NCBI GenBank assembly: GCA_963555705.1
Contig: OY743190.1
Location: forward strand, 34,206,929 to 34,270,928
Direction of reading: 5' to 3'
DNA length: 64,000 nt
DNA from: Ligustrum vulgare
Taxonomy: Eukaryota > Streptophyta > Magnoliopsida > Lamiales > Oleaceae
Shown: one piece after another, positions 25,733 through 57,323 of the stretch
Layout: each line of letters begins with the position of its first letter
Position numbering within the stretch: the stretch's first letter is position 1
Program-made: the position numbers and the translations under genes
Notes under the pieces: model-generated
What the model was told of the DNA's origin: nothing
Databases searched by the model: none
Seen by the model: only the letters and a program-made list of their open reading frames with translations

Positions 25733-25744
25733 GCTCTGATACCA
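25733..25744 (-). promoter_or_regulatory. tRNA-iMet primer binding site of copia-2
   Basis: TGGTATCAGAGC in minus sense, two bases inside the right (5') LTR. Confidence 0.95.
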
Positions 25745-25746
25745 GT

Positions 25747-27718: not shown

Positions 27719-28348
27719 TTAGCCGTGGAACCCAGTCTGGCTCCACACTGCATCTCGAACTCGGCTCATGTCGCGTCCTTTAAGGGTTCGACCCACACCC
27801 TCAAACGCCGAGTTTGCAGCCATGTCTCGGCTTCGTGCCAAGTACTCGTGTGGTGGGCACAGTTCCGATTCACTTTGTACTAATCCATCATCCGAGTTGT
27901 GGAACGAGTCGAACGAATTGACTCGGTGGATCTTCGACCAATCAGGAACATTTACTGGGGCCGACGTAGCCATGTGGCGCCCACGTGGAGATTCCATCAC
28001 GTTGTCCTGGCTGCGGAACTGGCTCATGATCCTAGGAGAATTCGAATCCTCGAAAGCCGACGGCAAGCCTCCAAATTGGCGGTGGGAGTGGTGCTTGTGG
28101 CTGACCACGCGTGGAGCATGATGGCGGCTCCCGTAACCGTGGAAGCTTCCATTACTCTCGGAACCAGCAACCGAAGTCCACTCGACATTGACCAGATGAT
28201 TCTCAGCGTTGTTCGTGTTATCAAAAGTTGACCAAACTTCATCTTCTCCAAGATCCGACGCTCCGTCGACTGTTTCTTGATCCCGATTGTAACCACTCCC
28301 TAAAAACCTTTCACTTCGACTAGTTGTCAATTTTCGACCCTTTGCCAT
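27719..28348 (-). CDS. Senescence regulator S40 family protein (DUF584)
   Basis: Intact single-exon gene of 209 residues. Starts MAKGRKLTTSRSERFLGS and ends with VGRTLKGRDMSRVRDAVWSQ then TGFHG, the N- and C-terminal signatures of plant S40-like proteins. The middle has the family's VPDWSKI motif and PPHEYLAR block. S40 proteins are small plant-specific nuclear proteins linked to leaf senescence and stress; biochemical activity is unknown. The ATG at 28348 is chosen because the upstream in-frame extension lacks an ATG and the family starts MAKGRK. Length is normal and there are no breaks. It is GC-richer than its surroundings. No neighbouring gene suggests a shared function. Confidence 0.95.
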   Translation of the reverse strand: MAKGRKLTTSRSERFLGSGYNRDQETVDGASDLGEDEVWSTFDNTNNAENHLVNVEWTSVAGSESNGSFHGYGSRHHAPRVVSHKHHSHRQFGGLPSAFEDSNSPRIMSQFRSQDNVMESPRGRHMATSAPVNVPDWSKIHRVNSFDSFHNSDDGLVQSESELCPPHEYLARSRDMAANSAFEGVGRTLKGRDMSRVRDAVWSQTGFHG

Positions 28349-29008
28349 GAATTGCAAGAACACAGCACCAACTTGCTAATTCTCGGACTACCTGAATCTT
28401 GGTTTCCAGTTAGCTTTATCTCAGGTTGCCGGAATATAATTTTTCCGGCGACCCAGTAAGAAAACAAGCGTGTTTATGTAAATTTCATGCAAATTATTAA
28501 AAATAGACTGAACTTCTGAGGGTGCAGTCGTATAAATAATGTTTGATTGCATTGCATGCATTTCATGTGAATTTGGGTTTCATTTCTTCTACATTTCATT
28601 AAGATAGTGTTTGATTGGGGAGGGAAAAATGAGGTGGAATTCCATGTTTAATTGAAATATGATAAATTTGAATGAAGAATGCATTTTCTATGAAATTGCC
28701 ATCAAGTACAGTCTAATATAAGGACAAGGCAATTATGGCGGGGGAAGATGAGCATGAGCACGACACTGAAATAAAAAATAAATTCAGTGCCCAGGTGGTG
28801 GCGATTGATGAGCCTACGCGCGCGTGGAAGCGCATTTCGTACACATAATTTTGTTTTACCATATTGTCTATTGAAATCTAAGTATGGTCCTACAACCCAC
28901 GCGGAGGTGGGGTCTACACCACCTGCTCACAGTCTTTTCGTTGCTCGACGCATGACTCGTAATAGAACAAGTGGGCCAAACAAGTGGCCCAATTACATGT
29001 TCACGTTC

Positions 29009-29021
29009 CACGTGCCACGTG
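29009..29021. promoter_or_regulatory. Paired G-box (ACGT-core) elements
   Basis: Two CACGTG palindromes seven bases apart, about 660 bp upstream of the S40 start codon. G-boxes bind bZIP/bHLH factors and often mediate ABA or light responses; relevance to S40 is inferred from position only. Confidence 0.4.
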
Positions 29022-29049
29022 GCTTGACAGTGTTACTTGTAAAATAAAA

Positions 29050-29222
29050 GAATAATGTTATTTATTTCAAGGTTGAGATCAATTTCAATCCAATTGTCAC
29101 TCTTTAATTAAAAATTGAAGAGATAGCTTGTGTATGTGCACATGAACACCTCCTTATTCTCCAATGAATGTGTGCTAACTGGATTGAGATCAATCTCAAC
29201 CTTAAGAGAAATAACATTACTC
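29050..29222. mobile_element. Mutator-type MITE with 9-bp target duplication
   Basis: 173 bp with terminal inverted repeats of about 40 bp (GAATAATGTTATTT... and, in reverse complement, GAGTAATGTTATTT...), flanked by the perfect 9-bp duplication AAAATAAAA (29041-29049 and 29223-29231). Nine bases is the Mutator-superfamily signature. The duplication is low-complexity, which lowers its weight slightly. Confidence 0.8.
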
Positions 29223-30556
29223 AAAATAAAATAGTCAAGAAAATTTGACGGACCCTAAAGTAATAAAACTTGATTTTGACATAGAAACTTCATAAATATC
29301 GATCATGTTTTGTCCTAATTTCTCAAAATTTATTTTTAATTACAGATAATAACATCTACGATTAGAAATAGGTGTCTTCGACCATTTTACACTTGAGCAA
29401 GCGAATTTTCGCTTATGTGTATTTTATTTGATTACCACTTAGTATCTCGATTAAAATGGGAAAAAAACATCCATTAATATTTGTTGTTGGAGAACAAACT
29501 TCAAATGAGTTTCTGTCCTTAGATTCTAATAAATTAAAGTTAACAATTAATGTTAATCATACACTTCAAATGATCCAAAACTTTTCAACAACACGTTTTA
29601 TCAACATTTCCAAAAATTTTAATAGATTTTGATAATACTTATAAAATGTGTGGTTGAAAAATTGTAAATTTCATATAATTTGTAATTGATTGATTGTCGA
29701 TTTTGATTTAATCGATAATGAGATTTGTTCAATCCCATTAGTTTTTTTCATCAAGCTTTATTATGATTTTTCCTTAGTAAGTGGAAATGGAAGTACTGAA
29801 CTTCTTTATGCAATGTCGTCAAATTCAAATTCATCTGAAAAATAAGTGAACTTTTATTTATTTCCGTTAGACAGTCGTCCCTTGAATATATTTCCTTCTA
29901 CCAAAGTTTATTTTGACCAAATCATACTGATATAGTCATATGTGGCACGCACTAATTCATATTGTAAGTACCAATAGTTTTCCTTAATTACAACTAAAAT
30001 AAACTCTAATTGTGGTAGGTGTCGGAATAAAGTAGAATGGCTTTCGATCGGCATGTTGGACGGCTGAGAATTCATTGATGGGACATTTCATGGGTCCTCA
30101 AATTAACCTCTCGTGGTTTCAACATCAAGGGTGCACTAAGCCATAATTTTGAGAGGTCCCATTTTAATTATAATAGCCTTCAAGATTGGAGCAAACTATA
30201 AACTTGATAGCGAGTTGTGTGTAGAGTCACAATTCGTTACGTCAATTTATATTTCTCTTTTGGAAGTTTTATTTTTTTGAACTTCTTGTATACTAGTGTG
30301 GGTGACCTTGAGTAGTTTGAGACGATATTTTGAATTATTATTGACCTCAATTAACCATGAGACAATTTGTTTGGAAATTTTAGAACTTGGCTATGGGTAC
30401 TCTCCCAACGAACTTCTTTTCACTATTCGAAATATAGCAAAAATTTGTAAAACTTGGAAAATCCAATTTGTTAATGTATTTAGTAAAATAAATTTAAGGT
30501 TGTAATCATTCTCCTTCTCTATCTGGATTTGGGGAAGCCCGTGAAGGCTCAAAGTT

Positions 30557-30872
30557 AGTCTGACAGTGAGATATTTTGAATCTTAATTTTGTTTCATAAA
30601 ACTTGAGGAATTAAAAAAAAAGAAAGATCCATTTACATGGATATATAGAATAAAGAATGCTGCAATACAACTGATACAAAAGCACGAGAATTAGCTCTGA
30701 CTAATAACAGCTTGACACGTGGAAGAAGTAGTGGAAGCTTAAGCCTAAAAATAAGGACCATTGTCTGCAGTAGTAACAGACTTGATGCTGGTGCGTTGAT
30801 CACGTTTTTATCATTATAGATTTCATTTATCTTGTTTCTTCTTGTTCATGCATTGAGGTATGATCCTTAACA
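30557..30872 (-). repeat. copia-3 3' LTR
   Basis: 316 bp, colinear with the right LTR. The outer edge is fixed by the AAGTT duplication and the inner edge by the polypurine tract. Confidence 0.9.
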
Positions 30873-30924
30873 CCCCCTTCAAGCAGGAGGGCACTTGTGT
30901 CACACCTAGCTTGTCTTTTAGTAC

Positions 30925-33900
30925 TTAAAACCTGGGCTGTGATATGACTTTTGTAAGTAGATCAGCAACTTGGTCTGAAGATAGAATGTATGATATCTCT
31001 AACTCCTTATTCAACACTATATCCCTCACAAAATGCATATCTATTTCAATATGCTTAGTGCGAGCATGATAGACAGGATTTGATGCCAATGCTCTTGCAC
31101 TTAAATTATCGCACCATAGTACTGGAGTGTAATTCGAAGGAAGCTTCAATTCTTTGAACAGAGATTGCAACCATGATATCTCTGCAGTCGCATGAGCAAG
31201 AGCTCTATATTCCGATTCAGTGCTAGACCTTGCAACCACAAGTTGTTTCTTTGAAGACCAAGACACCAAACTATCTCCCCAATAAACACAATACCCTGCA
31301 GTAGATCTCCTATCATCTGGACATGTTGCCCAATCAGCATCTGCATAGGCATTGATACATGGTCTGTCACTAGGTTGAATCCAAAGTTCTTGTCCAAGTG
31401 TCCCCTTGAGATATCTAAAAATTCTTTTAAGAACTTTCCAATGTTCATCAGTAGGACTTTGTAAGTACTGACTCATTTTATTTACAGCAAAAGTGAGGCC
31501 TGGTCTTGTATGTGATAAATATTGTAAACCTCCAATTGCACTTCTATACATGGAAGGATCAGCCATTTTGATTTCCAATGTACTTCGAGATCTTGATTTC
31601 GGTTGACATAGGAGTATTGCTAGGTTTCAGATGTTGATAGTTGAATCTCTTCAGTAAATCTTCAGTGTACTGGTTCTAAGTAAGATGAAGACCAGAATGA
31701 TGTTTATGAACTTCAATCCCTAAAAATTTGTGAAGCAATCCCATGTCCTTCAAGGAAAAACTTGTATTAAGCTTTGTAATGAATATTTGCACCATGACTG
31801 AGTTATTCCCTGTTATAATTATGTCATCTACATATATGAGAGCAAACATTATAAAAGCATCATTTGAAAAATAAAACAGAGAATTGTCTGCCTTAGATTG
31901 ACAGAATTTCATGTCAAGTAAGGTGTCTTTTAGCTTGTCATACCAAGCTCTAGGCGCTTGTCTCAACCCATACAAAGCTTTGTTAAGCTTACACACATAG
32001 TCAGGAAATGACTGATTCACAAATCCTTTCGGCTGGTGCATGTATACATCCTCTTATAGTGTCCCATTTAGAAAGGCATTGTTAATGTCAACTTGTCTTA
32101 TCTCCCAAGACTTTGAAACTGCAATTGTAAATATGATCCTCAATGTAGCAGCCTTAATTACTGGACTAAAAGTCTCATAAAAGTCTATTCCAGGTGTTCG
32201 AAGATAACATTTTGCTATTAACATTGTCTTAAACATCTCAACTTCTCCTTTTGAATTGTACTTTGTTCTAAAAACCCATTTGTTCCCAATCACCTTATAA
32301 CTTGAAGAAGGTGGTATCAAATTCCAGGTGTCATTTTTTATTAGAGCATCATATTCATCTGACATTACAATTCTCCAATCTGCATTAGACAATGCTTCTT
32401 CTACACTCCTAGGTTCAACTGTTTCTTTGCTTAATTTAACATCACAGACGTAGGCTTAAATATCCCTGCTCTAGCTCTAGTAGTCATAGGATGTCTGATG
32501 ATTGGATTAACTTCCTCAAGACTTGCTTGAACTATTTCACAATCAACAACATGTTGATCATCATTACTCAAGGATCCTGTGTCTGTACTTTGAACTAGCG
32601 GCTCACTGGTTTCATTCTCATCATTATTGTCAGTCTGATAGTTTTGTTGTTGAGAAACATCTTGAGGAATATCATCCACTGGAAGATTGGCATCTAAAGA
32701 TGGTGTATCAGGAGTTGATGTATCAGATTTGGAAAAAATTGTTATAGTCTAGAAGAGGAAGTTGACAAATGACACTATCTGATTTCTTTGGATCAGCATG
32801 TTTGTTGAGAAAATTGGAGTGAAAGGGGAACTCTTATTCGTTGAAAACTACATGTCTAGAAGTATAGATTTTTCCTATGGAACTTAGACACTTGTAGCCT
32901 TTGTGTGAATCACCAGAACCTAATAAGACACATTTGACTATATGATAACTAAATTTATGTGTTTGATAAGGTCTTATGCATGGGTAACAAGTACAACCGA
33001 AGGTTCTTATGGAGCTATAATCAACTGGTTTTTTGTAGAGGTTTTGAAAAGGATATATCATGTGAAGAACAGGTGTGGGGAGTCTGTTTATTAGGAAGAC
33101 AACGGTTTTAAAAGCTTCCCACCAGAAGTTTAGTGGCATTTTTACTTGTGCCAAAAGAGTAAGTCCCATTTCAGTTACATGCCTATGTATCCTTTCAGCT
33201 ATTCCATTTTGAGCTGACGCATAGGGACAAGACCGCCTAAGTTCAATTCCTGATTGCTTTGAGATTGTTGTAAATGACCTAAACTCATCTCCCCAATCAG
33301 ATTGTAACACTTTGATTTTCCTTTCAAACTGATTTTCAACTAAAGTTTTAAACTGAACAAAGTTGTTTAATGTTTCAGATTTGGCTTTCATTGGATAAAT
33401 CCAAGTGTGTCTGTTAAAATCATCTATGAACAAGATATAATACCTAAAACCAGAATTAGATCTCAAAGGTACTGGTCCCCACACGTCTGTATGAATTAAG
33501 TCCAATGGAAATGAGGCATGTGAAGTTGAGTTTTGAAATGGAAGATAATTTGACTTGCCAAATTGACATGCTTCACAGAAAGGCAAATTTCATTGATTTT
33601 TGTGTTTTCATTACATAACTTCAAGACTTGTGATATAACATTTTTTGAACGATGTCCAAGTCTTTTGTGCAATACAACTAAGTTGTGACACAAGGACTCA
33701 ACATTGCTAGGATTGCAGTTGACACTATTATTGACACTGGAAATAAAAGACATTGAATTTGATATCTTTGATGATTTGCAAGATGCTAGTTTTGATGTCT
33801 TTGATGATTGGCTGGGTAACTTCAGTTGATACAATCCATCTCTAAGCCTTCTTTCAAGCAGAATTTCCCTTGTTTGAATGTCCTTAACAAAACAACAGGT

Positions 33901-35208
33901 AGAGTGAAATTCCATATAAACTTGATTATCTTTAGTTAGCCGAGAGACACTGATTAGATTTTTCTTGATGTTTGGTACATGAAGTAAATCATTGACAAAT
34001 AACCATTTGTTATTCAAAGTAGGCAGGTTTGTGGTTCCTACATGATCAATATTTAACAGATTTCCATTACCAACTGTTAACTTAATGTTACCTCCATAAT
34101 CATCTGCAGTTACCATGTTGTCTTTGCTATCAGTGATGTGGTTGCTAGCTCCTAGCTCCTGAGTCAGCATACCATGCTAGATCAGCTGGTGTTTGTGGTG
34201 ATGCTATGAATGTAGTGGTTTTCTCAGTATGATTGTTATGCTCTCCAGGTACCTCTCATCATATCTCTTCCAACAGTCATTTACAACATGATTACTCAAC
34301 GCACATATCTGGCATGGATCTTTTCTTTCAATGTATCTACCTCCTCTGCCTCTGTATCTGCCACGACCTCTGAAATTTGAGGTTCTACCACCTCTGCTGT
34401 AGTTGGAACTGGGCTTATGAATGAAGTTTGCAGAAGGTTGAGCAATATTGATTGAACTCAAATCATTTCTCACAGCATTTAGATGCTCAAGTCTGCTTTC
34501 AAAAGTCATCAGCAAGGATTGCAATTCACACCATGTTATTGAATCGCTACTATTGATTTGAACCACTATGGGAGTATATTCCTCATCCAAACTAGCCAGG
34601 GCTTGAGTTACTAAGTCAGGGATAGAAATACACTTACCAGAAACTTCAAGATTATCCGCCAACTGTTTGATAGTATTGAGATATGAATCAATACTCGTGG
34701 ACCCTTTTCTGGTTCTCATCAACTATCCAGTGAGATAAGTCATCCTTGACTTATTCAAGACACCATAACTTTATTTTATGGAGTTCCAGAGCTCAAATGA
34801 ACTGCAGCTACTCATGACCCTCATTGCTATCTCTTGTGTCATGGAAAAATAGATCCATCCCATTAACAGTTGATCTATAGAAACCCACTTGCCGTGTTCT
34901 GGATTTAACACCATTTCCACCTTTGAGACTTCAGCAGTTGTAACTTGTTGACTGAGATACTCTGGTGGACACTTCTTTGTCCCGAGTATAAAACCTTCTA
35001 AGTTATGGCCTCTTATGATGGGTATAGTAAGGTTTTGCCACAGCAGAAAATTGTTTCTCTCAAGCTTGATCGATGGAGTGTGGGTCAAATTTATGCCAAA
35101 AGGAGAAAGGTGATTTCCTCCCAACGATGGAGGCATCATAGTTTCAGAACTTGATTGGGAAAGAGAAGGTGAAGCTGAAGGATTGTTTGGTGGAGTGACA
35201 TTCGCCAT
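30925..35208 (-). pseudogene. copia-3 gag-pol, multiply frameshifted
   Basis: Gag begins at ATG 35208 (MANVTPPNNPSASPSLSQ) and continues after a stop/frameshift near 34,730-34,770. A zinc knuckle CQICALSNHVVNDC lies near 34,300. The protease DSGAS motif is split by a 7-bp tandem duplication (GAGCTAG twice) near 34,145-34,160. Integrase (32834-33586) keeps D in HTDVWGP, D in QSDWGDEF and E in IAERIHR. RT occupies 32392-31676 with YVDDIIITG and a stop after NGTL. RNase H (31578-30925) has STESEYRALAHA. At least five frame breaks separate the pieces, so the copy is inactive. Confidence 0.88.
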
Positions 35209-35227
35209 GTGTATTGCTCTGATACCA

Positions 35228-35535
35228 AGTCTGAAAGTGAGATATTTTGAATCTTAATTTTATTTCATAAAACTTGAGGAATGAAAAAAAGATCCATTTA
35301 CAGGGATATATAGAATAAAGAATGCTGCTATACAACTGATACAAAAGCACGAGAATTAGCTCTGACTACTAACAGCTTGACACGTGGAAGAAGTGGTGGA
35401 AGCTTAAGCCTAAAAATAAGGACCGTTGTCTGCAGTAGTAACAGACTTGATGCTGGTGTTGATCACGTTTTTATCATTATAGATTTCATTTCTCTTGTTT
35501 CTTCTTATTCATGCATTGAGGTATGATCCTTAACA
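35228..35535 (-). repeat. copia-3 5' LTR
   Basis: 308 bp, adjoining the primer binding site and the AAGTT duplication. Confidence 0.9.
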
Positions 35536-39779: not shown

Positions 39780-39943
39780 TGTTATAAACTAGAGAGAAAA
39801 AGAGAGACACCAATAAACTTGTGTACTTTATTATAAACCATAGCCCCCTATATATAAGGGAAGAAATAAATATACAAAGTAATTATAACTAGGGTTACGG
39901 GGATACAATTGTCATTCACTAATACAAGATAATATTTACAACA
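39780..39943 (-). repeat. LE2 3' LTR
   Basis: 164 bp, nearly identical to the right copy. Includes CACCAATAAACTTGTGTAC and GGGTTACGGGGATACAATTG. Confidence 0.88.
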
Positions 39944-39977
39944 CTCTCCCTTGAATGACATATTACAAAATATCTGC

Positions 39978-40580
39978 CTTGTTTGATAAAAACCCAATGG
40001 GACAAAAATATCAAACGAAGGAAAAAAAGTACAGTTATTCTTGGAGTATTAAAATAAATGTTGCCTCGTTAAAATCTCGCCAAGAAAATTCAATGGGACA
40101 AAACCTTGGCTAAGGAAAAAGAGTACAGCTACTCCCCCTAGTGTTGATCGCTGTAAATCATCGAGTCAATATATCTCAATCTTGTAAACTAGTTTCTTGA
40201 ATGTAGATGTTGATAGTGCTTTTGTAGATAAATCAACTTCATCGTTAGTTGAATGAATTTGTTGAAAATTCTGAAGTATTTTGATACTGCATCGTTAAAA
40301 CCTTGTCAGAAAAATTCTGTGGGAAAAAACCTGAACGAAGGAAAAAGAGTACAACTACTCCCCCTGATTCAATATGTATTGAATCATCCAAATAGTTACT
40401 TCCCCTGATTCAATTTCTATTGAATCATTCATACTTGATCTCTTCAGGAGTTTCGTATAGGAAAGTATATCAATAGACATTGATAACAGTTACTTCATTA
40501 AAAACCTTTCCAGGAAAACCTCGTGGGACAAAACCTCGGTTAAGGAAAAAAGAGTGTAGCGCATATTAGCTCCCCCTCAT
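39978..40580 (-). repeat. Four related modules at the LE2 3' end
   Basis: Modules around 39,978-40,050, 40,062-40,140, 40,289-40,371 and 40,497-40,580 share TTAAAACCTTG...GGGACAAAACCT...AAGGAAAAAGAGTAC...CTCCCCCT on the plus strand. Two are followed by GATTCAAT inverted repeats (40366-40385 and 40407-40426). Similar modules are familiar from non-coding parts of other plant retroelements; their role is unknown. Confidence 0.75.
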
Positions 40581-43500
40581 GGGAACATTACAATTGTTTG
40601 GATATTGCATATAATTATTTCAACTGTTAATCGGTGTAATATCGAATATCTTCACCAAGCATATATAAATGGCATATATCCCATGTTATTTGTTCTTCGA
40701 ATATAAATTCAATTGTGCTTTTGAACTTGAAGAACTATAAAATATTTCTAATGATTTGAACATGCTACATCGAGTTATTTTCTATAATCAATGCAGTTCT
40801 AAAATTTGGAAGTGACTTATTCACTTCAACGAACAATTAACTTATTCACTTCAGGTGAATAATTAACCATGAATTTGAATATAAAAATCAATTGCCACGA
40901 TTTTTATTCACAGTAATGGTATATCTCAATTTTAACACTTTGTCATATAGAGTCATTTGTATCATTCTTCATGTAATCTAATTTCATATTATCAATCACA
41001 TTCCATTGGAAATTGAATATATTAAAGGCATATGATATATTCAGATAGCAAAATATCTTTATACTCTGATCAAACAAGTTTCTTAAAAACTTGAATTATA
41101 TGTTTCAAACATATTTAATCCTTCGAGGATTATATTGTATGCTTCAGGCATAGTATATGTTTCACATTGCAATTGTCAAATTGTTACCACCAAATTTAAG
41201 TCGTGAAACTTTAGATATGTAATGATTTCTATATTTCAAATATATTTTCTCTAATTATTTCACCTCAATCTCAAAGTACTGAGGTATTGATTACCCTTTT
41301 TAATCTCATTCATTGGTACTTCAAAGAATACTCCCAACGTACCAAGTTGATGATCATACATTTTGATATCACTCATTGGTACATCAAAGAGCGCAAGGTA
41401 GTAATCAGAGTGAATCATTTTTCATTATATACATTTCTAATAATCATATAATTATCGGCACTTATTATGCATTTTCAGGCAAATAAAATATTGTATCTGT
41501 ACCAAATCTTTGAAACATTCGTTGCGCAACAAGTCATGTATTACGACTATACCTATAGGTATTTTACTGACTTTACACTTTTATGTGTTTGGACTTCAGG
41601 TCCCAAAACTTCATGTTTTGTAATAACTTTAATTTAGCCTGAATGCATACTTTTGCCAACTATTTTTATGTCGATTTTCTTCGACATATTTTCTTTTATT
41701 ATCCTCGCTATCATTCAAATTATGATGCAGCTAGCTTCACAATTTAATTTTGCATAAGTGCTTTATAAAGTGTGTCGACACAATTATCATCTCAATTTGA
41801 TTTCTTTCTCCACAAGACATAACTATAGAGATCTCAAATTTTCAATATTTCAAGTACTTGAATCTATTTTGGAGATTTACAATTAATTATGTCAATAAAT
41901 ACTCTCCCACGAGTATATGCCTCCTCAATAAGACCATCATAATCATTTGCTCAATCTTTATTTATTTGGAGATCTTTATTCGAATCAATTATCGCTACGC
42001 TTCAGGCATGATATACATCAATATAAGACAGAGCATCTGTAGCTAGTATATGAGATTTTATTAATCTCTTATGCATCTTGTAATTATGTTATCTCTTGAA
42101 CTTTTCGTTCGTATTTTCAATCGAACTTCTGATTTGTGTTATCAATCGCGATGATATAGATAACATAATATGATCCATTTGTTTGATTTTAAGCTACTAA
42201 TCTTCCCCCTAATTTTGAGAAAATTGTCAAATCAAATTGACAATCATTTTTTTTTACGTTGTAAAATATCACCCATTTGTGATATATGTTCAAATAACGC
42301 ATTTTTCTCAACATTCTTTATTTTCCATATCAGTGCATTGTGGTGGATAAATTACACTATTAAAAAATTATATGGAAAAATTAGGCTCTAACCATAAGCC
42401 AATTATAACAGGGAGAATTATGATTTTGGCATGATGCGTAATAGAATTCCCTAAACAAAAAGGGAAGTATTTTGTTCTCAATTAAATTAAGTGAAGGCGT
42501 TTAACAAGCAAAAATGTTAAACCATTTATCGATATCCCAACTAACACTTATTAAAATGTTGAGATTCATGTCCACTAGCATTATCAAGACACATTCTTGA
42601 TTATATAATCTGAAAAGAATTTTTTGCTCATAATTCATAATTTAAGCAATAATTTCGCAAACTTCAGGTTGCGAACACCATGCAATCATCTGGTACATGT
42701 ATCAAATCTATTAGATACAAATAATATTTAGATGATCAACGTGGAGGATGATGATGGTCCATTTATCACCCTAATTATTTTTCAGAAATATAGGAAATTT
42801 AATCCCTATTTTAGCTAGTGACAGTCAAGAAATTTCATGAAAGAGAATAAACATCGTATATGATTGGATTGAAGAATCTTCTGATTCTTCATTAACTATC
42901 CATTTTAATTTTGCATCATTATTGATTCAGTGATGGTTCAACTGGTCATGTCAAATAATAAAATCAAATTGAACTTCTGGTTCAATATAAGATATAATCC
43001 AATGATTAAACATATAATCATATATTATTCAAGTAGTCAAACTAATCAATGTCCTTATGACATTAGTTATATGTTTTCCTTCATGGATAAATATGAACTC
43101 AAATGATATATTCTTCGAAGCATATGCTACTTCGAAAGCACGTTTTTATTGCTAATTCAAAATCAATATGTCAATATTCTTCTGGAATATTGAAATTATA
43201 ATATCATATTCTTCAAAAGCGGATAATATTATTTTATAAATGTTGTGCTTCTTCGGGAGCAACAACGTATTGCTTCTTTAAGAGCAAAAATGAAATATTC
43301 TTTTGGAATATTTTATTAAATAACTCAAATGAGATATTTCTAATGCTGCAATATTCTGTTGGAATGTCCATTTAGATCAATATTCTTTTGGAATATTGAT
43401 TTAGATTATTTCTTTTTCTAGAATAGTGATACAATATTCTTCTGAAATATTGTACTATAATATTGAATGTAAAACATACATTCGAACAAATGTTTATTGT

Positions 43501-45260
43501 AAGTTGGTATAATCAAAACGATATAATAAGATCGAATAATTATACCACTTTCTATGGAAATTCGAAATTAATAGAATACAAACATTTACTTTTAGCAGAA
43601 AAAGAAACTCTTGAACAAGTAAAATAATAAATTAAATATTTATCACAAAATAAAGTTGTTATTCTTCAAGAATAACAACAAAATACTTTTTCAGAATATC
43701 AAATTAATAACATATCTCATAATATTGGGCTATTCGGGAGCAAATTATATTCCATTACTATATTTCATATGAGATAAAATTATGATTCTTCGGGAATCAT
43801 CACAACAATATATTATACTACATCATAATAATCTTCTAAATTATTAATAAATTCGAATTTCTTTGAAAAAAAGAATGCAATATTTATCACATGAATAATA
43901 AAATAATATTCTTCTAGAATATTGAAATGTAGTAATAACACAATATTCTTCTGAAATATTGATTTGAATATCATTCAATTATAACAATAATTAATATCTA
44001 TTGTGCTATTTAGGAGTAAAATAACGAATTATTCTTCTGGAATAATTATATTGCTAAAATTGCAATTCTTCAAGAATAATAAGTCAATATTCTTCTGAAA
44101 TATTGATATTAATGATTCATTCTATATTTCAAGCTAACAATATTTGTACTCTACACGAGTGACGTTAAAATATTCTTCTGGAATATTTACCTAACGTGGG
44201 TTGTGTTTATTCGAGAATACCAATATCATATTCGTTTAAAAACATGTTTTAAATTATGCTTCTTCAAGAGCATTGGATCAATATTCTTCTGGAATATTGA
44301 AATTGTAATATACTGCTCATGACAAGTAAGTAATATTCTTCTAGAATACTACTATTGTTGTCCTACTTCGTGAGCAACAACATGATACATTATTAAATAA
44401 GAATTTATGAATGAACATCTACAAATATTTAATCATCTTAAAGAATATTAATTACCATATAAACATAATATGGATTTATATATAAAATTGAATTACCAAA
44501 CATACATCAGGAAAAAAAAATTCCATATATAGAAGTTAACAAAATTGACTAAATCTTTTATTGGCTAAATCTTTTACCAATATGCAAAAGATACTAAACA
44601 TGCATGTGAATTTCATGTATAAAAATTAGATATATAACTAATATATGGTACAATCAAATCTAATAATGTATTTGAGAATTCAAAATAACATAGTGATTGC
44701 CATGCCTCAATTGAAAGAGCAAAAAATAATAACAATAATAATTTGTTGGAACAAGGTATACTTACACGAATTTATTTTGATTCTTCCAAAAGAAATAATA
44801 AATCAATATTCTTTTAAAATATTGAAAATTATAATTCATGCTCTTTAGGAGCAAATAACATCCTTCTAGGATATTAATTTTAATGTCGTACTACTTCATG
44901 AGTAACAACAAATTATTTATAATAGGCAATTTTACGATTAATATTCTTCTGGAATATTAATTATTTATTACGTTACTTCAAGAGCAACAACGAATTATTC
45001 TTCTGAAATAATTATAGATCTAAAATTGCTATTATTCAAGAATAAAATGTCAATATTCTTCTAGAATATTGAAAATTACAATGTATGCTCTTCAGGAGCA
45101 ACAACAAATATTTGTAATAGACAAACACAGACCTGTGATTAATATTCTTCTGGAATATTAATATAATGTTGTACTACTTCAGGAGCAACAACGAATGAAC
45201 TAATAACATCAATAAATTTGTAATGGACAAATCTATAATTAATATTTTTTTGAAATATTA
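40366..45260 (-). repeat. Array of short inverted repeats with a shared loop
   Basis: At least 25 stem-loops with arms of 4-12 bp and a loop of TTCTG, TTCAG, TTCGG or a one-base variant on the plus strand. Examples: TTATTCAC/GTGAATAA (40842-40862), AATCC/GGATT (41117-41131), TATGC/GCATA (41138-41152), GGAC/GTCC (41591-41603), CAAAAC/GTTTTG (41604-41620), GAAGAATC/GATTCTTC (42872-42891), TTGAAC/GTTCAA (42969-42985), CAATATTC/GAATATTG (43172-43192, 44279-44299), ATGATTC/GAATCAT (43792-43810), AATTATTC/GAATAATT (44027-44047), TAATATTC/GAATATTA (45140-45160), GCTC/GAGC (45087-45099). From about 43.1 kb on, the AATATTC type alternates with a GCTC-type word. Confidence 0.85.
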
Positions 45261-45552
45261 ATATATACTGTTGTACCACTTCAGGAGTAACAACATAATG
45301 AATTATCAATATAAAAATCAAAATCTGTCGAATTGGTTGGAGAAAATCAGATTCAGATTTATGAGCCGCAATTGCTAATGAACAACATCGTAATGAATAG
45401 ATGTGAATTGCAATTGAATAGTAATAAAAAAAATTCATATGTCAACAAATTAATTTCGGTGCATATGATTTTACCTTCTAATTAATATTTTGATATATGG
45501 GATTTTGAGGAATTTTTATAACTCAATTTGATAGAGACTCGTGTTGATAACG

Positions 45553-45714
45553 TGTTATAAACTAGAGAGGAAAAGAGACACCAATAAACTTGTGTACTTT
45601 ATTATAAATCAGAGCCCCATATATATAGGAGAAGAAATGGATATATAAAGTAATTATAACTAGGGTTACGGGGATACAATTGTCATTCACTAATACAAGA
45701 TAATATTTACAACA
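45553..45714 (-). repeat. LE2 5' LTR
   Basis: 162 bp, adjoining the primer-site-like sequence on its inner side. Its outer edge runs into a (CA)n tract. Confidence 0.88.
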
Positions 45715-46506
45715 CACACACACACACATATATAAAGATAAAGATAAAGATATATGAGATTGACTTGTCTAATATGCAATAACACATTTATACATGCATT
45801 TGCATTGATGGTAATATATGAGTTTGACTTGTTTATGTTCGATAATACATGTACATCATATTTTGCTCACTAAGCATGCCACGCTTACCTCACGACTTCT
45901 AGCATTTCAGGCAGGTTATGATGCTGATTCATGTAATGCTTGCCTCACTTTTGGGTCTATATTTTTAAATTTAAAGCTAGGGTCTTAGACTGCTAATTGA
46001 TTATCATTTTACCAAACATTAAAGACTAATGTGGTTTTTTTATTGCTTTATAATTTTCATTAAAAAGGGTTTTGGTGGAAAGTTAGTATGCAAGATCGTG
46101 AAAGAGATTGTTGATGATGAATAGTGACGGATGAATACAGGATGATGGTGATTTTAATTTGGTATTTAGTAGAGTTTAAGTGACAAATTCAAGAAATTAC
46201 ATATACGACAACCAGATCGACACCGTGGGAGTTATAATTTCATATATTAACTTAAAATAAGATTAATACAATTTGTAATTTATAACCACTGTGACTTGTT
46301 AATTGTAGAGTTTCTTAAATGGACAATTCTATTTGTACACACAAATTTTTACACATTAGCTTACACACCACTTACATGTAGTGAGACCTACAAAATAGTA
46401 ACCCAAAGAGTACATGTAACATGTAGCATTGTCCTTAAATTTAACGGTAAAAAAATTACATAAGTTGCCATATTTTGCTTTAAACGCCGGTCAATTTTCT
46501 ATTATC

Positions 46507-46703
46507 CTCTGTTTGGTAAAATTTTATTTATAAATGACGACGTGACAATATTTCCTTGATCCATTTTTTAAAAAACTAAAAAATAGTGAACGAAAATTTT
46601 TGATTAGTCAAAATTTTTGATTTTTCAAAAAAGTAAACCAAAGAGACGTTGCCACATGGCAATTTATAAACAAAATATATAACAAACCTTTACCAAACAA
46701 AGG
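46507..46703. mobile_element. MITE with CTxTGTTTGGTAAA termini
   Basis: Ends read CTCTGTTTGGTAAA and, in reverse complement, CCTTTGTTTGGTAAA, with further inverted homology (TTTATAAAT). Absent from the paralogous position in copy B (about 61,995-62,025), which supports insertion. Confidence 0.7.
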
Positions 46704-46710
46704 CAAAATA

Positions 46711-46857
46711 TATAGCTCTTGTTTGTGATTAAAATATGAATTTTACTCTGAGTCAAAGTCAATTATTTATTTTGTGGGTCTAAAAACTATTCCATCATTT
46801 TCATCAATTTTATCAAATTCTACTAAAAAATTGATTTTAATCTGCAACAAACACGAG
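46711..46857. mobile_element. Small MITE, 'CTTGTTTG' family, copy 1
   Basis: About 150 bp with imperfect termini CTCTTGTTTG...CAAACACGAG. Related copies at 49189-49358 and 62026-62176 share the TTTTATCAA(A)TTCTACTAAAAA block. Confidence 0.6.
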
Positions 46858-47525
46858 CATAATGAAAATTAATAGTTTTGTAATTTACCCCCATTTTTTT
46901 TCCCTATTTCTGAAATATAAAATGGATTTGGGCCATCAAGTTTGGATTTAAGTATTTTTCATTGAGAAAAATACACAAACAAAGTGTTTATAATACACAA
47001 TTTCATATCTAACTAAATACGTTTAAAATTGCACAAATAAGGTTGTAAATAATATAGTTAATATATTACAAAAATTCACCCCACCCCCACCCCATCCTTT
47101 CAAATCTTTCACACCAGACATAATAGATTGGTGTGAAGCGTTGTTGTCGTCACCACCACCACCTCCACCGCCACCATCTCCGACGCATTACCATGGTGCC
47201 CCCTGAATATCACCCCCACCTCTGCTATCCACTCCTTCGCACAAAAATCCACAAACTCAACCAATTAAAATATAAAAAATGTTGTTTTCAAAATTGAGAA
47301 TATGAAGAAGGTCTGAACTATCAAGTATGACTAATTCTTTTAGACCTGTGACCAACTGAAGTCTGAAATTGATATGTGACTTGTGAAACGTTGCTGTGAC
47401 AAGCAACATATAAACTATGACATGTGACCTTAAACTGCAACATGTAACCTATGAACTTGAATTTGTAAGTTAATATCAATGCAAAAAGGAAGTAACATGT
47501 GAGCAAATGAACTATGAAGTATGTT

Positions 47526-48005
47526 TGACATGTAAAGTGTGATACGTGACCTAAAGAAGTCATTTGTGACCTTCACAATTTTAAAGTGTGACCTGACTTA
47601 ATCCATTTAATACTTATGACCTGAATATTTGATATGTGACCTGTGACCTAATGCATCAAATGTGACTTGTGAATTAAAAATTTGGAGTGTGACTTGTGAC
47701 TTGAATATTTGAAGTGACTTGTGACCTAATGCATCAAATGTAACCTATAACCTAATATAACAAATGTGATCTAAAATAAGTCCGTTTGACGTATAAAGTG
47801 TGACAAATGACCTGAAGAAGTCACTTGTGACCTTCAAAATTTTTAAGTGTGGCCTGACTTGATGTATTTAATACCTATGACCTGAATATTTGATATGTGA
47901 CCGGTGACCTAATACATCAAATGTGACTTGTAACTTGAATACTTGAAGTGTGACTTGTGATATAATGCATCAAAAATGACCCGTGACCTAATATAACAAA
48001 TGTGA
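47526..48005 (+). repeat. 261-bp tandem repeat built from a TGACCTGTGAC-like word
   Basis: Two higher-order units starting at 47526 and 47787 share GTGACCTTCA(C/A)AATTTT, CTATGACCTGAATATTTGATATGTGACC and CATCAAATGTGACTTG. Within each, an approximately 25-bp word (TGACCTGTGACCTAATGCATCAAA) recurs. Confidence 0.8.
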
Positions 48006-49125
48006 CCTGAACACCACGACACCTGCAACACCGCACCAACACCATCAATCACTACTTGTAATGTGCCACTACCACCAACCAAACATATGTAGCGCCCAAC
48101 GTCGTGCCACCACTATCGCATCACTTGCACGAAACACCACCAACACCGTTGACACTAACACAAAGCCCAACCACCACTAATAACACCCGTACCATCACAT
48201 ATCCACTACCATCACCACTACTAATACATCCCAACTGTGTCGCTGCCACCATTACACTGTCACAACCATCCCAACACACATTCATCGGCACTAACACGAT
48301 TTGTTATTGAATATCGTGGCAGCAACGAGGTATCGTCGCTGCTCATAGAGATGCGTAGACTATGTAGTGATCTGCCGCCATGAAGATCCATCACCGAAGT
48401 GGAATAAAGTAATGGTAAAGAGGGCGCACTTGAGCTGCTCTCTTACTGTCTAAAAAGCCACCGTCGGTTCGAACTATTGCCAAATACTCCCACTCGACTG
48501 TCTCTAACGGTGGAAACACCGCCGCTTTGATCTGATTTATCGGAGGCTATGGTAAGAGATTTGTACCAAATTACCAAAAAAATAAACTCAAAATCCTAAA
48601 ACCACCATGGCTGGAGCTCTAAACCACCGAAGGAAGGAGTTTCACTGGGAGTCTATGCTGTCATTATTACCGAAGGATAGGTAGGGGGGCCAACTGCTTC
48701 TTCACTCGTGAGAAGAAAATGAATTGGTTCGATGGGGGAGTTGAGAGACGATTTTAGAGAAATGAATTTGGTCGTTAGCTGGGTTGGTGAGTGGGGTGGA
48801 TAGGTAGGGTGTGTTTATTAGATTATAATATTATTAATTAAAATGAATTAGCACCTGATTTATATATTAAAAACATAGAAACTTATTTTTTGAATTGTTA
48901 ATTTTAAAAATATGGTAGGCTGTAATGACCACATTTTCATTTTTCTGGTCATAGAAAGACAAAAAATTATCTTAGAATATCTTCATAGATTATTAATGAG
49001 TGCATGTAAATATTCCCTCATGGCACACTCAAAATATGGGACCAAAAATTGCAGAGGAGCATATAAAAAATCACAAATAGACAAAATTTTATTAAATTAA
49101 ATATGAATTAAAATTGCTACCAGAC

Positions 49126-49200
49126 AAGGGCTTATTATTTTATTAAAAAAATATATTCCGATAAATAATACCACTTGTAAAAATAAGCCCTTGTTTGATC
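49126..49200. repeat. Small inverted repeat (CAAGGGCTTATT arms)
   Basis: CAAGGGCTTATTATTTTAT is followed about 40 bp later by AAATAAGCCCTTG, making a small hairpin or MITE adjacent to MITE copy 2. Confidence 0.7.
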
Positions 49201-49358
49201 CAACTAAAAATTTAGATTTTAATTTAAGTCAAAGTCAATATTTAATCTTAACTACACATTTTATGGGATCACAAATTTTCAGCCACACAACTTATCAATT
49301 TTTATTAAAATCTACTAAAAATCTGATTTTTATTAAAATTTAAACTATGTCAAACAAG
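49189..49358. mobile_element. Small MITE, 'CTTGTTTG' family, copy 2
   Basis: Termini CCTTGTTTGA and TCAAACAAGG are exact inverted repeats; AT-rich non-coding interior related to copies 1 and 3. Confidence 0.7.
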
Positions 49359-49372
49359 GAATATTTTCTATC

Positions 49373-49590
49373 GGGTAAATAGCACAAAATGTCCCTAACG
49401 TTTGCACTTCTTGTGAAAATCGTCTCCAACGTTTAAGTTTTGGCATTTACACCCTCAAAATTATATTTCTTTGTGAAAATAGTCATTCCATTAAGCACCG
49501 TTAAATTCAACCATTAGAAAAGATGGGTAAATTTGCGCATTTTGTCCCCAACGTTTAGAAGCTTTGTGGAATATGTTATGACCACGCCTA
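49373..49590 (+). repeat. MULE left terminal inverted repeat
   Basis: Starts GGGTAAATAGCACAAAATG. Shared internal words with the right end include TTTACA(C/T)CCTCAAAAT and the TTAAATTCAACCATT block. Confidence 0.75.
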
Positions 49591-50373
49591 AGTAAACTTA
49601 ACACATCATAAATGGGAACCCACATGGAGCCCATTGGTTGCCATCTATGCTTAGTACTCCGCAAGTTACTGCACTGTCGAGGTGAAATATTGTCTGAACT
49701 CCATGTAGCCGAACTGCTTATTCCGAACTGATGTTGTCCGAAGTATATGCTCCAGGCTAATGATAAGACTGGTTAGTGTGTCGGAGAGATGTAATCTTCC
49801 TGCAAGTCGCGACTTGATGCAACAACTCCTTGATTATTGTCCAATTTTACTTATTTTAGATATGTGAATACCAAAAAAAAAAAAAAAATACAATTTTGGG
49901 ATATTAATTGAGTTATTTAGAGTAAAACTTATAAAAGAATCAATTTTAATTCTTGAACTCTAAATTGATTTTATTTGCTATTAATTTCATTTATTTAATT
50001 GTAGAGATACATTGGACAATTTCTTACATTGAATTCAAATTTCGACCCATAATTTTTGGCCCAATCCACAACTCCCAGCAGCCCAGCCCAGTTTCACGAA
50101 ACCAACCTACAGCTACAAACACACCCAACTTCCGTCAACATCCTCAACTCTCAGCCTCTCATATTTTTCAGCCACACCCAAACAGACAACAGGAGCTGTC
50201 CCTTTTTCTCTCTAACGAACTTGGTAGCTTCTCTTTCAGAACTCAACCTACAGCCGAAACTTCACCTCCAACCTCTCACCTTCAACCTCATCCGCTAACT
50301 CTTCCTCCACTCTCTGCCGCCAACACCAACAGCTCCTCTCCCTCACCATCAGTGGGCACAAAAACCTCACAGA

Positions 50374-51843
50374 CAGGGGCGGAACTAGAATATACAAACG
50401 TAGTAGGCTAGAGAAAAAAATGGGGGGTGAAGGGGGGTGACCCCCCTCCCGGGGGTTTGCCCCCGAATTTTTTTTTTGAAGCAAAAAATTAGAATAATTT
50501 AGACTTCGAATTCGCAAATATAACAAAATAAATTTGCTTAAATGTCAACATGTAAGAGCTAAAAAAAGCACCACAAACGTGCAAATACAAAATATCTTGA
50601 GATGTTACTAGTGACTCATTCTCCTACTCCCCACACGATAAAATTTATCAACAGTGACATCCGTATCAATTCCAAGGGCAATTTCCCTCTCAATATAGAT
50701 GACCATGGAATTTGAAAGAAATTCATTCTCCATTTTATTGCAAAACGAGGTCTTGATAAGTTTCATTGCTGAAAAAGCTCTTTCTGTTGTTGCAGTAGAA
50801 ACTGGAAGAGTCAACACCAAACGAATCAATCTATCAATCAAAAAATAATGACGAGACTTCTTCGTTTCAACCAACATCTGACATAACTTAGGCATTGATC
50901 TTTTGTTTGAAATAGGAGTTTCTTGTGGAATATTTGGAGTGTTTGATGATCCAACATCATCTTTCTTATTAAAGTAATGAAAGATATTTCTTCTTAGCAT
51001 TCTAATTAATCTGCAAGAATATGTATTTTCTAAATTCAATCCAAAAATTCTCATCACAATAGTATACTCAAGTGATAAAATAAATAAATCAATAAAGTAA
51101 CTATAAAATATCACAATTCACCAAAACAAATAAAAAAACTAAGTAAGCCCTTTATTAACAAAAAATTAACTACTAGTATATCAATCTACCACAAGAAGAT
51201 AAATCCTTTCTATTATAAATAAATTAATTATTACAAAAATTCCTAATTCTAAATAAGCCCTAAATAACTAAAGTGAATTAATCAATAAATTCAACACTTA
51301 AAACAATTAATAACCAATAATTAAATTAACACATGTTACACAATGATATTGATAAATTAGATTTCTAATTAAGTTAAATTATTTAACATATTCAAGACAA
51401 CTAAGTCAGATTGTTGACTTACCAGCGTCCAGCAGTGACCGCCGTTGGTTGGGGGAACTTGGGCGACGCCGACGAGTAAGACCGAAGAGGCGCGAGGCGG
51501 AGGAAGCAGCAGCAGCTCTCTGACTCAACAAGGCAACGACCGGAACAGGCACAACAACAGCAAGGCAGGGCAGAGATCGGAACGACGGAACAGCAACAAC
51601 AACTTAAACTCCTTCCTATTGAAGGACGCTGGACGCGTACGCAGTGACCAGATCGGGGGTGTTTGTTGTTGTGAAATTGTGATATGGATTGGGTTGTGAA
51701 TTTGTAGTAGTGGGCTCAAATTGGATGAGAAATCTAGTGGGCTAAGCAAGAGAAAGTGATTGGGCACCCAAATGATGTTCAAAATTTTCAGAATTTCTTA
51801 GTGGGCTTCAGCATACTGTAGCCAATGAACAGTTCCGCCCCTG
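50374..51843 (-). mobile_element. hAT element, internally deleted
   Basis: 1470 bp with terminal inverted repeats CAGGGGCGGAAC/GTTCCGCCCCTG and a perfect 8-bp duplication CTCACAGA (50366-50373 and 51844-51851), the hAT signature. It inserted into the Pro/Ser-rich segment of the MULE. Confidence 0.95.
50608..51114 (-). pseudogene. hAT transposase remnant, N-terminus fused to dimerisation domain
   Basis: A 168-codon frame. After a non-conserved stretch, MLRRNIFHYFNKKDDVGSSN looks like the start of TTF-type zinc-finger hAT transposases; within about 40 residues it passes directly to the C-terminal hATC dimerisation region (LTLPVSTATTERAFSAMKLI, then IYIEREIA). The catalytic core (normally several hundred residues) is missing, as in Ds-like internal deletion derivatives. 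It cannot transpose itself. Confidence 0.8.
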
Positions 51844-52090
51844 CTCACAGAGCAATCCTCACAGCGGCTCAACTCCCACACCAGCACTTCAACCTTCTTT
51901 CCCTTCAACCACAACAAGCCGCCAACCTTTCTCACAGCAACCGCTGACTTCATCTTCAACGCAGCCATCACAGTTCCAGCCACCAACTCCTCCATTCTAC
52001 CATCGCAGCCAGCCGCATCATCTCCCCAGCTTCACTTCTTCCTCACGCACAGCAGCCACGGCACACAGCCAAAGCAGCATCCTCCGGTTT

Positions 52091-55989: not shown

Positions 55990-56446
55990 CTCTTATGTGG
56001 CGTTCAGAAATTCAAAAACGAAGAGGATTTAGACATCAAATAACAAGAACGAATTTTATTGCTGGCTTGAAATGAAACGAATATCAAGAATTTAAGGAAA
56101 TTCAAGAAAGTGGTTCTTGAATGGACTTTTTTTTGGATGAATTTTCGGAATAAAATAAATAAATAAATAAAATATTTTTTTTATAAATCCGAAAATTCGA
56201 CAACGAACACGACAAAAAAAACGGAACTTAATTCGGATAAGAATTAAGCAAAACAAACACTTTTGAAATTTTTTGGAACGATTTTCTGGATTAAAGACTC
56301 AACAAACTCAAGAACAGGAATAACGCAGAAAACTGAAAACAAAAAAACAATCAACAAGATATGGACGATTTTTATGGGACTCGATGATAAACATAAAAAT
56401 AACTGGATAGAAAAACCTGAATTCAGAGTCCAGCTCTGATACCAGA

Positions 56447-57188
56447 TGATGAGATTCGAAGCGCGGAAGAAACGTCGGAAAGTTCCGAACTCAGGTTGTG
56501 GTTGGACGGATGAATCATGACCCGATATTCACGACGCGATGGCTCGAAGATGCGGAATAAAGAACCACGACTTTCGAAACGCCACAAGGATTTGTTCAAT
56601 CTCCTTGATAAGTCTCTGATTTTCAACGCCACAAATACTCTCGCGAATATTTGATAAGTTCTGGATGAACGCCACAAGATAATCAATCTTGATAAGTTTG
56701 GGTTTGTAATGTGAATCCACACATTAAACAATTGAAAAACATTCAATCTCTTTTTATTCAATCATCAAAATCTTAATTTACAATGAATAAAAAAGGTGTA
56801 TAAATAAGCAAAATAAAACCCTAATCGCTAATTTACTCAAAATAGAATTCTAACTAACCTAGAATACTAAATTAGAAAAATAACCTAAAAACCAAAATGG
56901 AAACAAAATAATTAAAAATCCTATAATTATGGAAATATAGTAAATTTCCGTCTGCATAATTGATTTGCCAATTTGAAGCCCCAAACGATGGAATTTGACC
57001 CTAAAATCAATGGGCTCAAGGGCTTTGGCCCATGAGTCTTGCTCAGTGACATGTTTCTACTCGAAAAACATATATTATTCATCCAGTTCCGACATGGTTG
57101 ACTGGACTGCACTTTTATTTTGGCTTGAATATTTAACTTTCTGTCAAGTCTGCTATGACTCCGATTGTCGAGGGTCCGGAACACATCA
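56447..57188 (-). repeat. LE3 5' LTR
   Basis: 742 bp. Contains a short insertion (TCTTTTTATTCAA, about 56,748-56,762) absent from the left LTR. Confidence 0.92.
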
Positions 57189-57323
57189 CAAAACTTCAAA
57201 TTTCACATCAAACAAACACAATATTTTTATTTTCCTTTTTTAACATACTTTTTATTATTATTTTATTTGAAATATTTAATTTTTCATTAAAATAAAACGA
57301 GAAATACACCAAAAATATTTATT

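Follow-up and report, generated by a model that had tools for sequence, protein, structure and literature searches.

In a 64,000-nucleotide stretch of Ligustrum vulgare DNA (assembly GCA_963555705.1, contig OY743190.1, forward-strand positions 34,206,929 to 34,270,928; hereafter the window), we identified a long terminal repeat (LTR) element, LE2, whose internal region carries a strongly non-random array of micro-hairpins, many of which share a C-NNGAA-G loop on the sense strand. In this element we observed an excess of hairpins, a shared loop, covariation between paralogous hairpins and a primer-binding site of the half-tRNA-Ile type, with no recognised coding in the open reading frames (ORFs) and probes tested; a second hairpin array was observed in another LTR element of the window, LE1. 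Tentatively, we regard LE2 as a LARD-like parasite whose RNA may be packaged in trans by means of many stem-loops that would bind Gag, and its transcription, selection at the RNA level, Gag binding and packaging are what we infer from these observations. Two coding Copia elements of the window, copA and copB, were used as controls, and the coordinates of all features, given as positions in the window, are collected in Table 1.

Inverted repeats with perfect arms and loops of 3-8 nucleotides were counted in the LE2 internal region and in 200 dinucleotide shuffles of it. The many short inverted repeats that the original prediction had described in this element were recovered with their named arms and loops, and they exceed the shuffled controls: 54 were observed vs 18.9 expected for arms of at least 6 (maximum in shuffles 28), 38 vs 6.1 for arms of at least 7 (maximum 13), and 22 vs 2.0 for arms of at least 8 (maximum 7). 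As a background, 32 two-kb bins of the window were each compared with 30 dinucleotide shuffles, and 12 of them lay above all shuffles at arms of at least 6 (three in LE1, three in LE2, six elsewhere) and eight at arms of at least 7 (one in LE1, three in LE2, four outside the internal regions). At the latter threshold the four outside bins held 3-7 hairpins, compared with 9, 18 and 11 for the bins of LE2 and 16 for the main bin of LE1; LE2 and LE1 are distinguished by the magnitude of the excess, and LE2 also by its shared loop. Chance in AT-rich, tandemly duplicated DNA is scarcely credible as an explanation: the AT content of 0.73, the repetitive proximal half and the other bins that exceed their shuffles speak for it, but the LE2 counts, including those for the shared loop, lie far beyond the shuffles, and with arms of at least 6, 7 and 8 none of four further AT-rich stretches (8.6-11.8, 11.9-15.6, 36-39.6 and 51.2-54.1 kb) departed from the span of its 100 shuffles.

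The shared loop was evident whether hairpins or loops were taken as the starting point. With 5-nt loops and arms of at least 5, hairpins were found at 20 of 173 sites with a GAA-ending loop vs 24 of the 5406 remaining sites, and 20 of the 173 GAA sites combined an NNGAA loop with at least seven of eight Watson-Crick pairs (mean of 500 shuffles 0.19, maximum 2). In a motif-first test, C-NN-GAA-G heptamers were located without regard to arms and then scored for at least four contiguous pairs, G-U being allowed. LE2 held 32 such heptamers vs 2.2 expected (maximum 8 of 300 shuffles), and 21 of these 32 were flanked by at least four contiguous pairs vs 0.14 expected (maximum 2 of 300 shuffles), bearing out the earlier statement that AT-richness by chance would not suffice. 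On both strands of the control stretches (8.6-39.7 and 45.8-64 kb) only 3 of 66 CNNGAAG heptamers had at least four pairs, and LE1 contained two heptamers, one of them with such a stem. Of the 11 LE2 heptamers that had no four-pair run, seven form a GTTGTTGCTC-like class; folding of six of these seven gave z-scores of -0.7 to -2.8, several of them through a bulge or a bigger internal loop, and two of the folded members (z -0.72) were equalled by 41-44 of 200 shuffles.

As to the loop sequence itself, which the original prediction had given as almost always TTC(T/A/G)G, reading CAGAA, CTGAA or CCGAA in sense, the GAA type was upheld, but the set proved wider, with TAGAA, TTGAA, TCGAA, ATGAA and CAAAA also present, and its dominance was confined to one half of the element. 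When LE2 was divided into a proximal half (43100-45552) and a distal half (40366-43100), loops being assigned by a centre rule that may misclass those of even length, 19 of 21 proximal hairpins with arms of at least 7 had a GAA-type loop vs 4 of 17 distal ones. The 13 distal hairpins with other loops nevertheless exceed the 2.3 expected there for any loop (maximum 7 of 200 shuffles). Self-alignments of LE2 gave identities of 68-86% over 43-177 bp (16 of 58 alignments, including that of the 3' module); the proximal half consists of diverged tandem units, and its hairpins therefore share ancestry. In alignment A1, described below, the arms of seven distal GAA-loop hairpins look unrelated when judged by eye. 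One distal group of three consecutive hairpins (41094-41157) has a minimum-free-energy fold that joins the outer two hairpins together, and its centroid gives three hairpins.

Two readings of the loop as something other than a protein-binding site in RNA were considered. Interspersed DNA sites such as heat-shock elements (TTCnnGAA) are a highly improbable source of the pattern. Heat-shock elements make some Copia elements heat-responsive, and the AATATTC-CAGAA-GAATATT class includes TTCCAGAA; however, GAA alone is common, the hairpins with GGAC, TATGC, TTATTCAC or CAAAAC arms have no TTC two bases ahead of GAA, the LE2 sites are internal and outside the LTR, and a dimer site would keep its half-sites, whereas LE2 keeps the centre and varies the flanks. 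A heat-shock element array with alternating GAA and TTC in 5-bp steps was rejected, TTC being uncommon at the required place. Dimerisation of the RNA, which the original prediction had listed among possible functions, was likewise rejected in the form of kissing loops: the loops are neither self- nor mutually complementary, because GAA does not pair with GAA, and mirror TTCNN loops with at least seven of eight pairs numbered 0 on the LE2 sense strand. The motif CUGAAG may resemble the anticodon loop of tRNA-Phe.

Covariation was assessed between paralogous hairpins within the one LE2 copy. From 58 BLAST alignments inside LE2 we drew 44 non-independent comparisons with ungapped arms, in which the partner place needed no hairpin of its own to be counted. 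Among the resulting 352 base-pair comparisons, the 5' side was altered in 38 and the 3' side in 27, and both sides had changed in 10 vs 2.9 expected under independence, nine of the ten being Watson-Crick in both copies, in agreement with the earlier claim that the arms vary while complementarity is kept. The 39 one-sided changes to or from a Watson-Crick pair comprised 28 G-U, 9 A-C and 2 other, many one-sided changes being the same change repeated at the closing pair. Alignment A1 contains 28 hairpins chosen for bulge-free pairing, and alignment A2 comprises 19 of these (the AATATTC-like proximal copies, 18 distinct rows), omitting 45238-45262, 43779-43803 and the seven distal hairpins; GTTGTTGCTC-like hairpins are in neither. 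In A1, 94.9% of cells paired vs 70.0% after shuffling, an excess that is partly due to selection because the rows were picked as bulge-free hairpins. In A2, 99.3% of cells were paired vs 87.5% in shuffles, with two-sided changes at 5 pairs vs 1.5 shuffled (0 of 500 shuffles). These two-sided pairs are single-pair substitutions with no arm replacement, which argues against de novo creation of hairpins in these copies. The covariation among paralogous LE2 hairpins is real and fits selection for structure.

The chief and serious rival of the packaging explanation, although we hold it unlikely, invokes no function at all: tandem duplication would have multiplied a small number of hairpins, within which template switching (quasipalindrome correction), at reverse transcription or replication, would have copied arm mutations across, leaving the loop untouched and yielding perfect, covarying arms. 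The proximal units are indeed diverged tandem duplicates, and the nine of ten two-sided changes that retain Watson-Crick pairs are as expected of this process. It leaves unexplained, however, a single C-NNGAA-G loop on seemingly unrelated arms; some members of the GTTGTTGCTC class pair imperfectly, through a bulge and G-U; and the one-sided cells of A2 comprise eight G-U and one unpaired cell, although six of the eight lie at one pair position.

The architecture of LE2 is that of an LTR element without recognised protein genes. Its ends lie at AT and AC microsatellites, and a clean target-site duplication was not seen there. The primer-binding site fits half-tRNA-Ile, agreeing with the complement of the tRNA-Ile anticodon arm at 13 of 17 positions, and one of the four mismatches is a C opposite the inosine position of the tRNA. 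The same test gave 7/17 for LE1, 8/17 for copA and 9/17 for copB, the last two sharing a primer site of the tRNA-Met type, TGGTATCAGAGC, unlike that of LE2. The segment 40062-40590 contains internal purine tracts (three GGGGGAG and one GGGGAAG), with hairpins of the form TGATTCAAT-NNNN-ATTGAATCA immediately before one GGGGGAG and the GGGGAAG, and all three GGGGGAG stand ahead of a CTCTTTTTNCC... repeat. From their sequence these tracts look like additional copies of the plus-strand priming region.

The description of LE2 as a non-coding element was borne out in the searches that were made. Each sense frame of the 5.6-kb internal region has 137-143 stops, and tblastn with 11 Copia ORF pieces gave best E values of 0.33 in LE2 and 0.11 in LE1, while, as a positive control, four of five copA pieces matched copB (E 1.7e-15 to 4.7e-58), the gag piece being missed. 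Of 20 LE2 ORFs of at least 50 amino acids listed on both strands, five, all sense, were scanned with Pfam, as were five of the eight listed for LE1, also sense; none of these ten exceeded a curated cut-off, and the sole match, E 0.05, was sub-threshold. With the scanned ORFs and the Copia probes, no polyprotein was found in LE2 or LE1. The longest LE2 sense ORF (100 amino acids, 45139-45441) repeats VV(T/A)PEVVQ(Q/H)YI because two tandem units fall in frame by chance; a codon-phase reading derived from it, with CCN GAA as Pro-Glu, was dropped in view of the at least 137 stops in every sense frame. As stops, Copia probes and Pfam gave no recognised coding, LE2 is treated as non-autonomous and LARD-like. 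When copies were sought elsewhere, viral contigs yielded 0 loci for the primer-site and 3'-module patterns; the 3'-module pattern gave five loci with bacterial titles in genome contigs, agreeing with LE2 over at most 38 bases; and two LE2 hairpin sequences matched 8 and 11 loci in viral contigs, with one match each of at most 39 bases and at most four paired CNNGAAG per strand of locus.

LE1, whose primer type differs from that of LE2, provides a second hairpin array, and its loops are different. Its LTR ends were set by a target-site duplication, ATTAG, and it appears non-coding in the ORFs and probes tested. The 14 nt directly after its 5' LTR are complementary to its own LTR (mean with shuffled LTR 7.2, maximum 11 of 300), a self-priming arrangement that is predicted, in passages of a plant LTR survey, for the TAR lineage and also for the Tcn1 clade and 12% of all elements (PMC6317226), and that is thus not exclusive to TAR. 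LE1 has 16 hairpins with arms of at least 7 vs 2.7 expected (maximum 7). Among the 24 with arms of at least 6, TG occurs in 14 loops (35% of hairpins in shuffles) and GAG in 5 (0.36 per shuffle, with 8.7 hairpins per shuffle), examples being A-TTGAG-T, A-ATGAG-T and A-AAGAG-T. The LE1 LTR has eight hairpins with arms of at least 6 vs 1.9 expected (maximum 5), and short hairpins such as ATGAACCACGC-GATC-GCGTGGTTCAT at 4216-4241 were noted in it. A search with an LE1 sequence gave 0 loci.

We propose that LE2 may be a LARD-like, non-autonomous member of Ty1/copia, of the Bianca type, as its half-tRNA-Ile primer site suggests. An LTR element without genes must rely on the Gag of another element for packaging. 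In the genomic RNA of LE2, some 30-45 small sense-strand stem-loops (31, 32 or 44 depending on the counting rule) would replace gag-pol, with a common apical C-NNGAA-G loop and its unpaired G, and with stems that drift yet remain paired. Nucleocapsids prefer unpaired G, and loops exposing G beside A-A could plausibly serve a zinc-knuckle nucleocapsid as a multivalent ligand. The array could thus offer many weak, cooperative sites to the Gag or nucleocapsid of an autonomous helper, whose recognition would allow the gene-less RNA to be packaged and reverse transcribed in trans. Tandem duplication would have enlarged the array, and compensatory substitutions under selection on stem and loop would then have varied the arms.

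The proposal has precedents of several kinds. According to parts of PMC6281560, packaging signals in RNA viruses are dispersed stem-loops that vary around one recognition motif and bind coat protein, and parts of PMC7612645 describe packaging-signal sites with RGAG loops in hepatitis B virus RNA; LE2 is alike in its multiple dispersed stem-loops around one motif, but differs in being retrotransposon DNA whose RNA would lack genes, and its Gag contact is putative. Among plant elements, the Bianca lineage of Ty1/copia is primed by half-tRNA-Ile with inosine pairing according to the plant LTR survey (PMC6317226), and LE2 shares the complementary site with C opposite inosine, but no polyprotein was found in it and its affiliation comes from the primer site. 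Like a LARD, LE2 has two LTRs, a primer site and a purine tract around a long internal domain in which no retrotransposon proteins were recognised; its LTRs of about 165 bp differ from those of the original Triticeae LARDs, which are of kilobase size, and so does its structure, a micro-hairpin array with a shared loop. TRIM elements, including Cassandra, are likewise proteinless, have structured RNA and are presumed to be trans-mobilised in passages of PMC7215508; LE2 has a 5.6-kb internal region whereas TRIMs have almost no internal domain, and the structure of Cassandra consists of LTR-LTR pairing, unlike the LE2 array. In Retand elements, tandem repeats enlarge a non-coding internal region, as in LE2, but this region lies after pol and only some elements are non-autonomous (PMC11963269, from whose text 'hairpin' is absent as a word). 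No LTR element with an array of hairpins sharing one loop was described in the top-listed titles and abstract openings on hairpins, palindromes, packaging, LARD and Bianca, most subscription papers lying outside this coverage. We place LE2 with the LARD-like elements, and packaging in trans is the best but unproven explanation of its array.

Several results weigh against this explanation, a first group of them concerning strand. The excess of folding in LE2 is not greater on the sense strand: mean z-scores were -1.04 for sense and -1.36 for antisense, the control values being -0.33 and -0.32, so that the folding check suggested in the original prediction gave an excess over controls but no sense advantage; LE1 gave -1.27 and -1.37. 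With loops masked, sense and antisense stems of LE2 differed with p 0.99, 0.12 and 0.08 in three sets, showing no clear sense advantage. In LE1 masked stems were stronger on the sense strand 37 to 12, but this difference was equalled in 5 of 60 shuffles and is largely base composition. Strict NNGAA hairpins (at least six of eight Watson-Crick pairs) had nine G-U mismatches and one A-C, and in a broader set the G-U:A-C ratios were 11:8 in distal LE2 and 16:10 in LE1, but 15:15 in proximal LE2. Loops with arms of at least 6, measured on the sense strand relative to spacers and with uncorrected p values, were richer in G than in C in LE1 (p 0.0003) and also in distal LE2 (p 0.04), which speaks for the packaging explanation, but not in proximal LE2 (p 0.36), nor significantly in distal LE2 at arms of at least 7 (p 0.17). 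Strand-specific backing for an RNA function is thus only suggestive, and template-switch correction of palindromes therefore retains some likelihood; of the causes that the original prediction had offered, selected structure fits the covariation, but the strand tests fail to set it apart from template switching, to which a fold excess with no sense-strand preference is congenial.

Further points on the same side come from outside the strand comparison. Numerous distal hairpins do not carry the shared loop, and diverse loops are what random switching would leave; in A2, further standard pair types numbered 9 vs 7.9 shuffled (123 of 500), which is not significant; and the hairpin evidence comes from a single copy of LE2. 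Six bins outside the two elements beat all of their shuffles. The coding and likewise reverse-transcribed copA has an excess of its own, with 19 hairpins vs 7.0 expected at arms of at least 6 (maximum 14), 7 vs 2.2 at arms of at least 7 (maximum 7) and 3 vs 0.5 at arms of at least 8 (maximum 2); it is smaller, with a density at arms of at least 6 of 4.1 per kb vs 9.6 in LE2, and non-coding and coding elements therefore differ in degree. Template switching would perhaps account for the copA excess. The coding copB, on the other hand, has no excess (3 vs 2.3 expected at arms of at least 7), which the template-switch account would not predict. Finally, in portions of PMC4974528, up to 5 kb of internal Ty1 sequence could be deleted with no marked loss of trans transposition, and a mini-Ty1 was functional with 380 and 357 nt of its ends.

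Selection of the sense RNA structure for another partner, such as a host RNA-binding protein, or for export from the nucleus, RNA stability, evasion of silencing or granules of multivalent RNA, seems rather improbable to us. The hairpin excess, the covariation in A2 and the motif-first result serve it equally, and parts of PMC7215508 attribute conserved RNA structures to the LARD and TRIM groups. However, the whole window had 0 Rfam matches at gathering thresholds, and the loops of LE1 and LE2 differ, which suggests lineage-specific partners rather than one host protein. A more general conjecture, which we consider doubtful, is that non-autonomous LTR elements of different Copia lineages may independently have exchanged their genes for arrays of tens of micro-hairpins with loops tuned to the Gag of a helper, a general RNA 'address'.

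Table 1. Features of the window, with position, strand and remarks
Feature	Position	Strand	Remarks
LE2, LTR element	39780-45715	minus (sense)	internal region 39945-45552, 5.6 kb
LE2 5' LTR	45553-45715	-	matches 3' LTR, 93.3% identity; start TGTTG, end AACA
LE2 primer-binding site CGTTATCAACACGAG	45538-45552	-	directly after 5' LTR; fits half-tRNA-Ile
Proximal hairpin array	43170-45297	-	diverged tandem units; AATATTC-type and bulged GTTGTTGCTC-type hairpins, loop C-NNGAA-G
Hairpin ATTAATATTC CAGAA GAATATTAAT	45138-45162	-	proximal example from inverted-repeat list
Hairpin ATTAATATCC TAGAA GGATGTTATT	44854-44878	-	compensatory pair T-A to C-G, and one G-U
Hairpin ATAATTATTC CAGAA GAATAATTCG	44025-44049	-	compensatory pair A-T to T-A
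Hairpin GTTGTTATTC TTGAA GAATAACAAC	43655-43679	-	ten Watson-Crick pairs
Distal hairpins	40840-42989	-	NNGAA-loop hairpins interspersed with other-loop ones
Distal NNGAA loops	42967-42987, 41600-41624, 41585-41609, 41133-41157, 41112-41136, 41094-41118, 40842-40862	-	
Consecutive hairpins CAAAAC-ATGAA-GTTTTG, GGAC-CTGAA-GTCC, ACAC-ATAAAA-GTGT	41574-41624	-	fold -12.1 kcal/mol, z -2.4
Consecutive hairpins TATGC-CTGAA-GCATA, TAATCC-TCGAA-GGATTA, ATATGT-TTGAA-ACATAT	41094-41157	-	fold z -3.4
LE2 3' module	40062-40365	-	recurrent purine tract GGGGGAG; CTCTTTTTCCTT...TTTTNTCCCA repeat, 40288-40365 vs 40062-40139, 82% identical
LE2 polypurine tract CAAGGGAGAG	39944-39953	-	precedes TGTTG of 3' LTR; read from sequence
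LE2 3' LTR	39780-39944	-	165-bp match to 45553-45715, 93.3% identity; reads TGTTG...TATAACA
LE1, LTR element	4078-8485	+	LTRs about 4078-4849 and 7714-8485, 96.9% identical
LE1 features		+	purine tract AAGTGGGGGA; self-primer after 5' LTR; hairpins with arms of at least 6 in 5465-7122
copA, coding Copia	20546-26315	-	tRNA-Met primer site; reading frames in several pieces
copB, coding Copia	30557-35535	-	tRNA-Met primer site; reading frames in several pieces
Outside bins with excess at arms of at least 6	14001-16000, 22001-24000, 28001-30000, 46001-48000, 50001-52000, 56001-58000		30 dinucleotide shuffles

Elsewhere, the window resembles plant DNA, with a Senescence_reg protein, a 'Plant transposon protein' domain and a hAT dimerisation domain. 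A pararetrovirus-like stretch of separate open pieces occupies 11900-15550, with a viral movement protein domain at 11900-12289 and, at 14248-14718, reverse-transcriptase RNase H domains. A repeat family pairs 46085-46948 with 61740-62295 and 48933-49572 with 60977-62453 (70-91% identical, one pair inverted).

The array may bear on the question of how the RNA of a gene-less LTR element comes to be selected by the particles of another element. One loop on free stems is a countable and mutable candidate signal, which predicts which loop bases matter. Packaging in trans predicts that stems would be exchangeable as long as pairing is retained, and it predicts the helper lineage, Bianca for LE2 and perhaps TAR for LE1. 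If the arrays do act as an 'address', gene-less RNAs would compete for particles as in the packaging-signal system proposed for RNA viruses; if they arose instead by palindrome correction during reverse transcription, LE2 would document this mutational process with unusual clarity.

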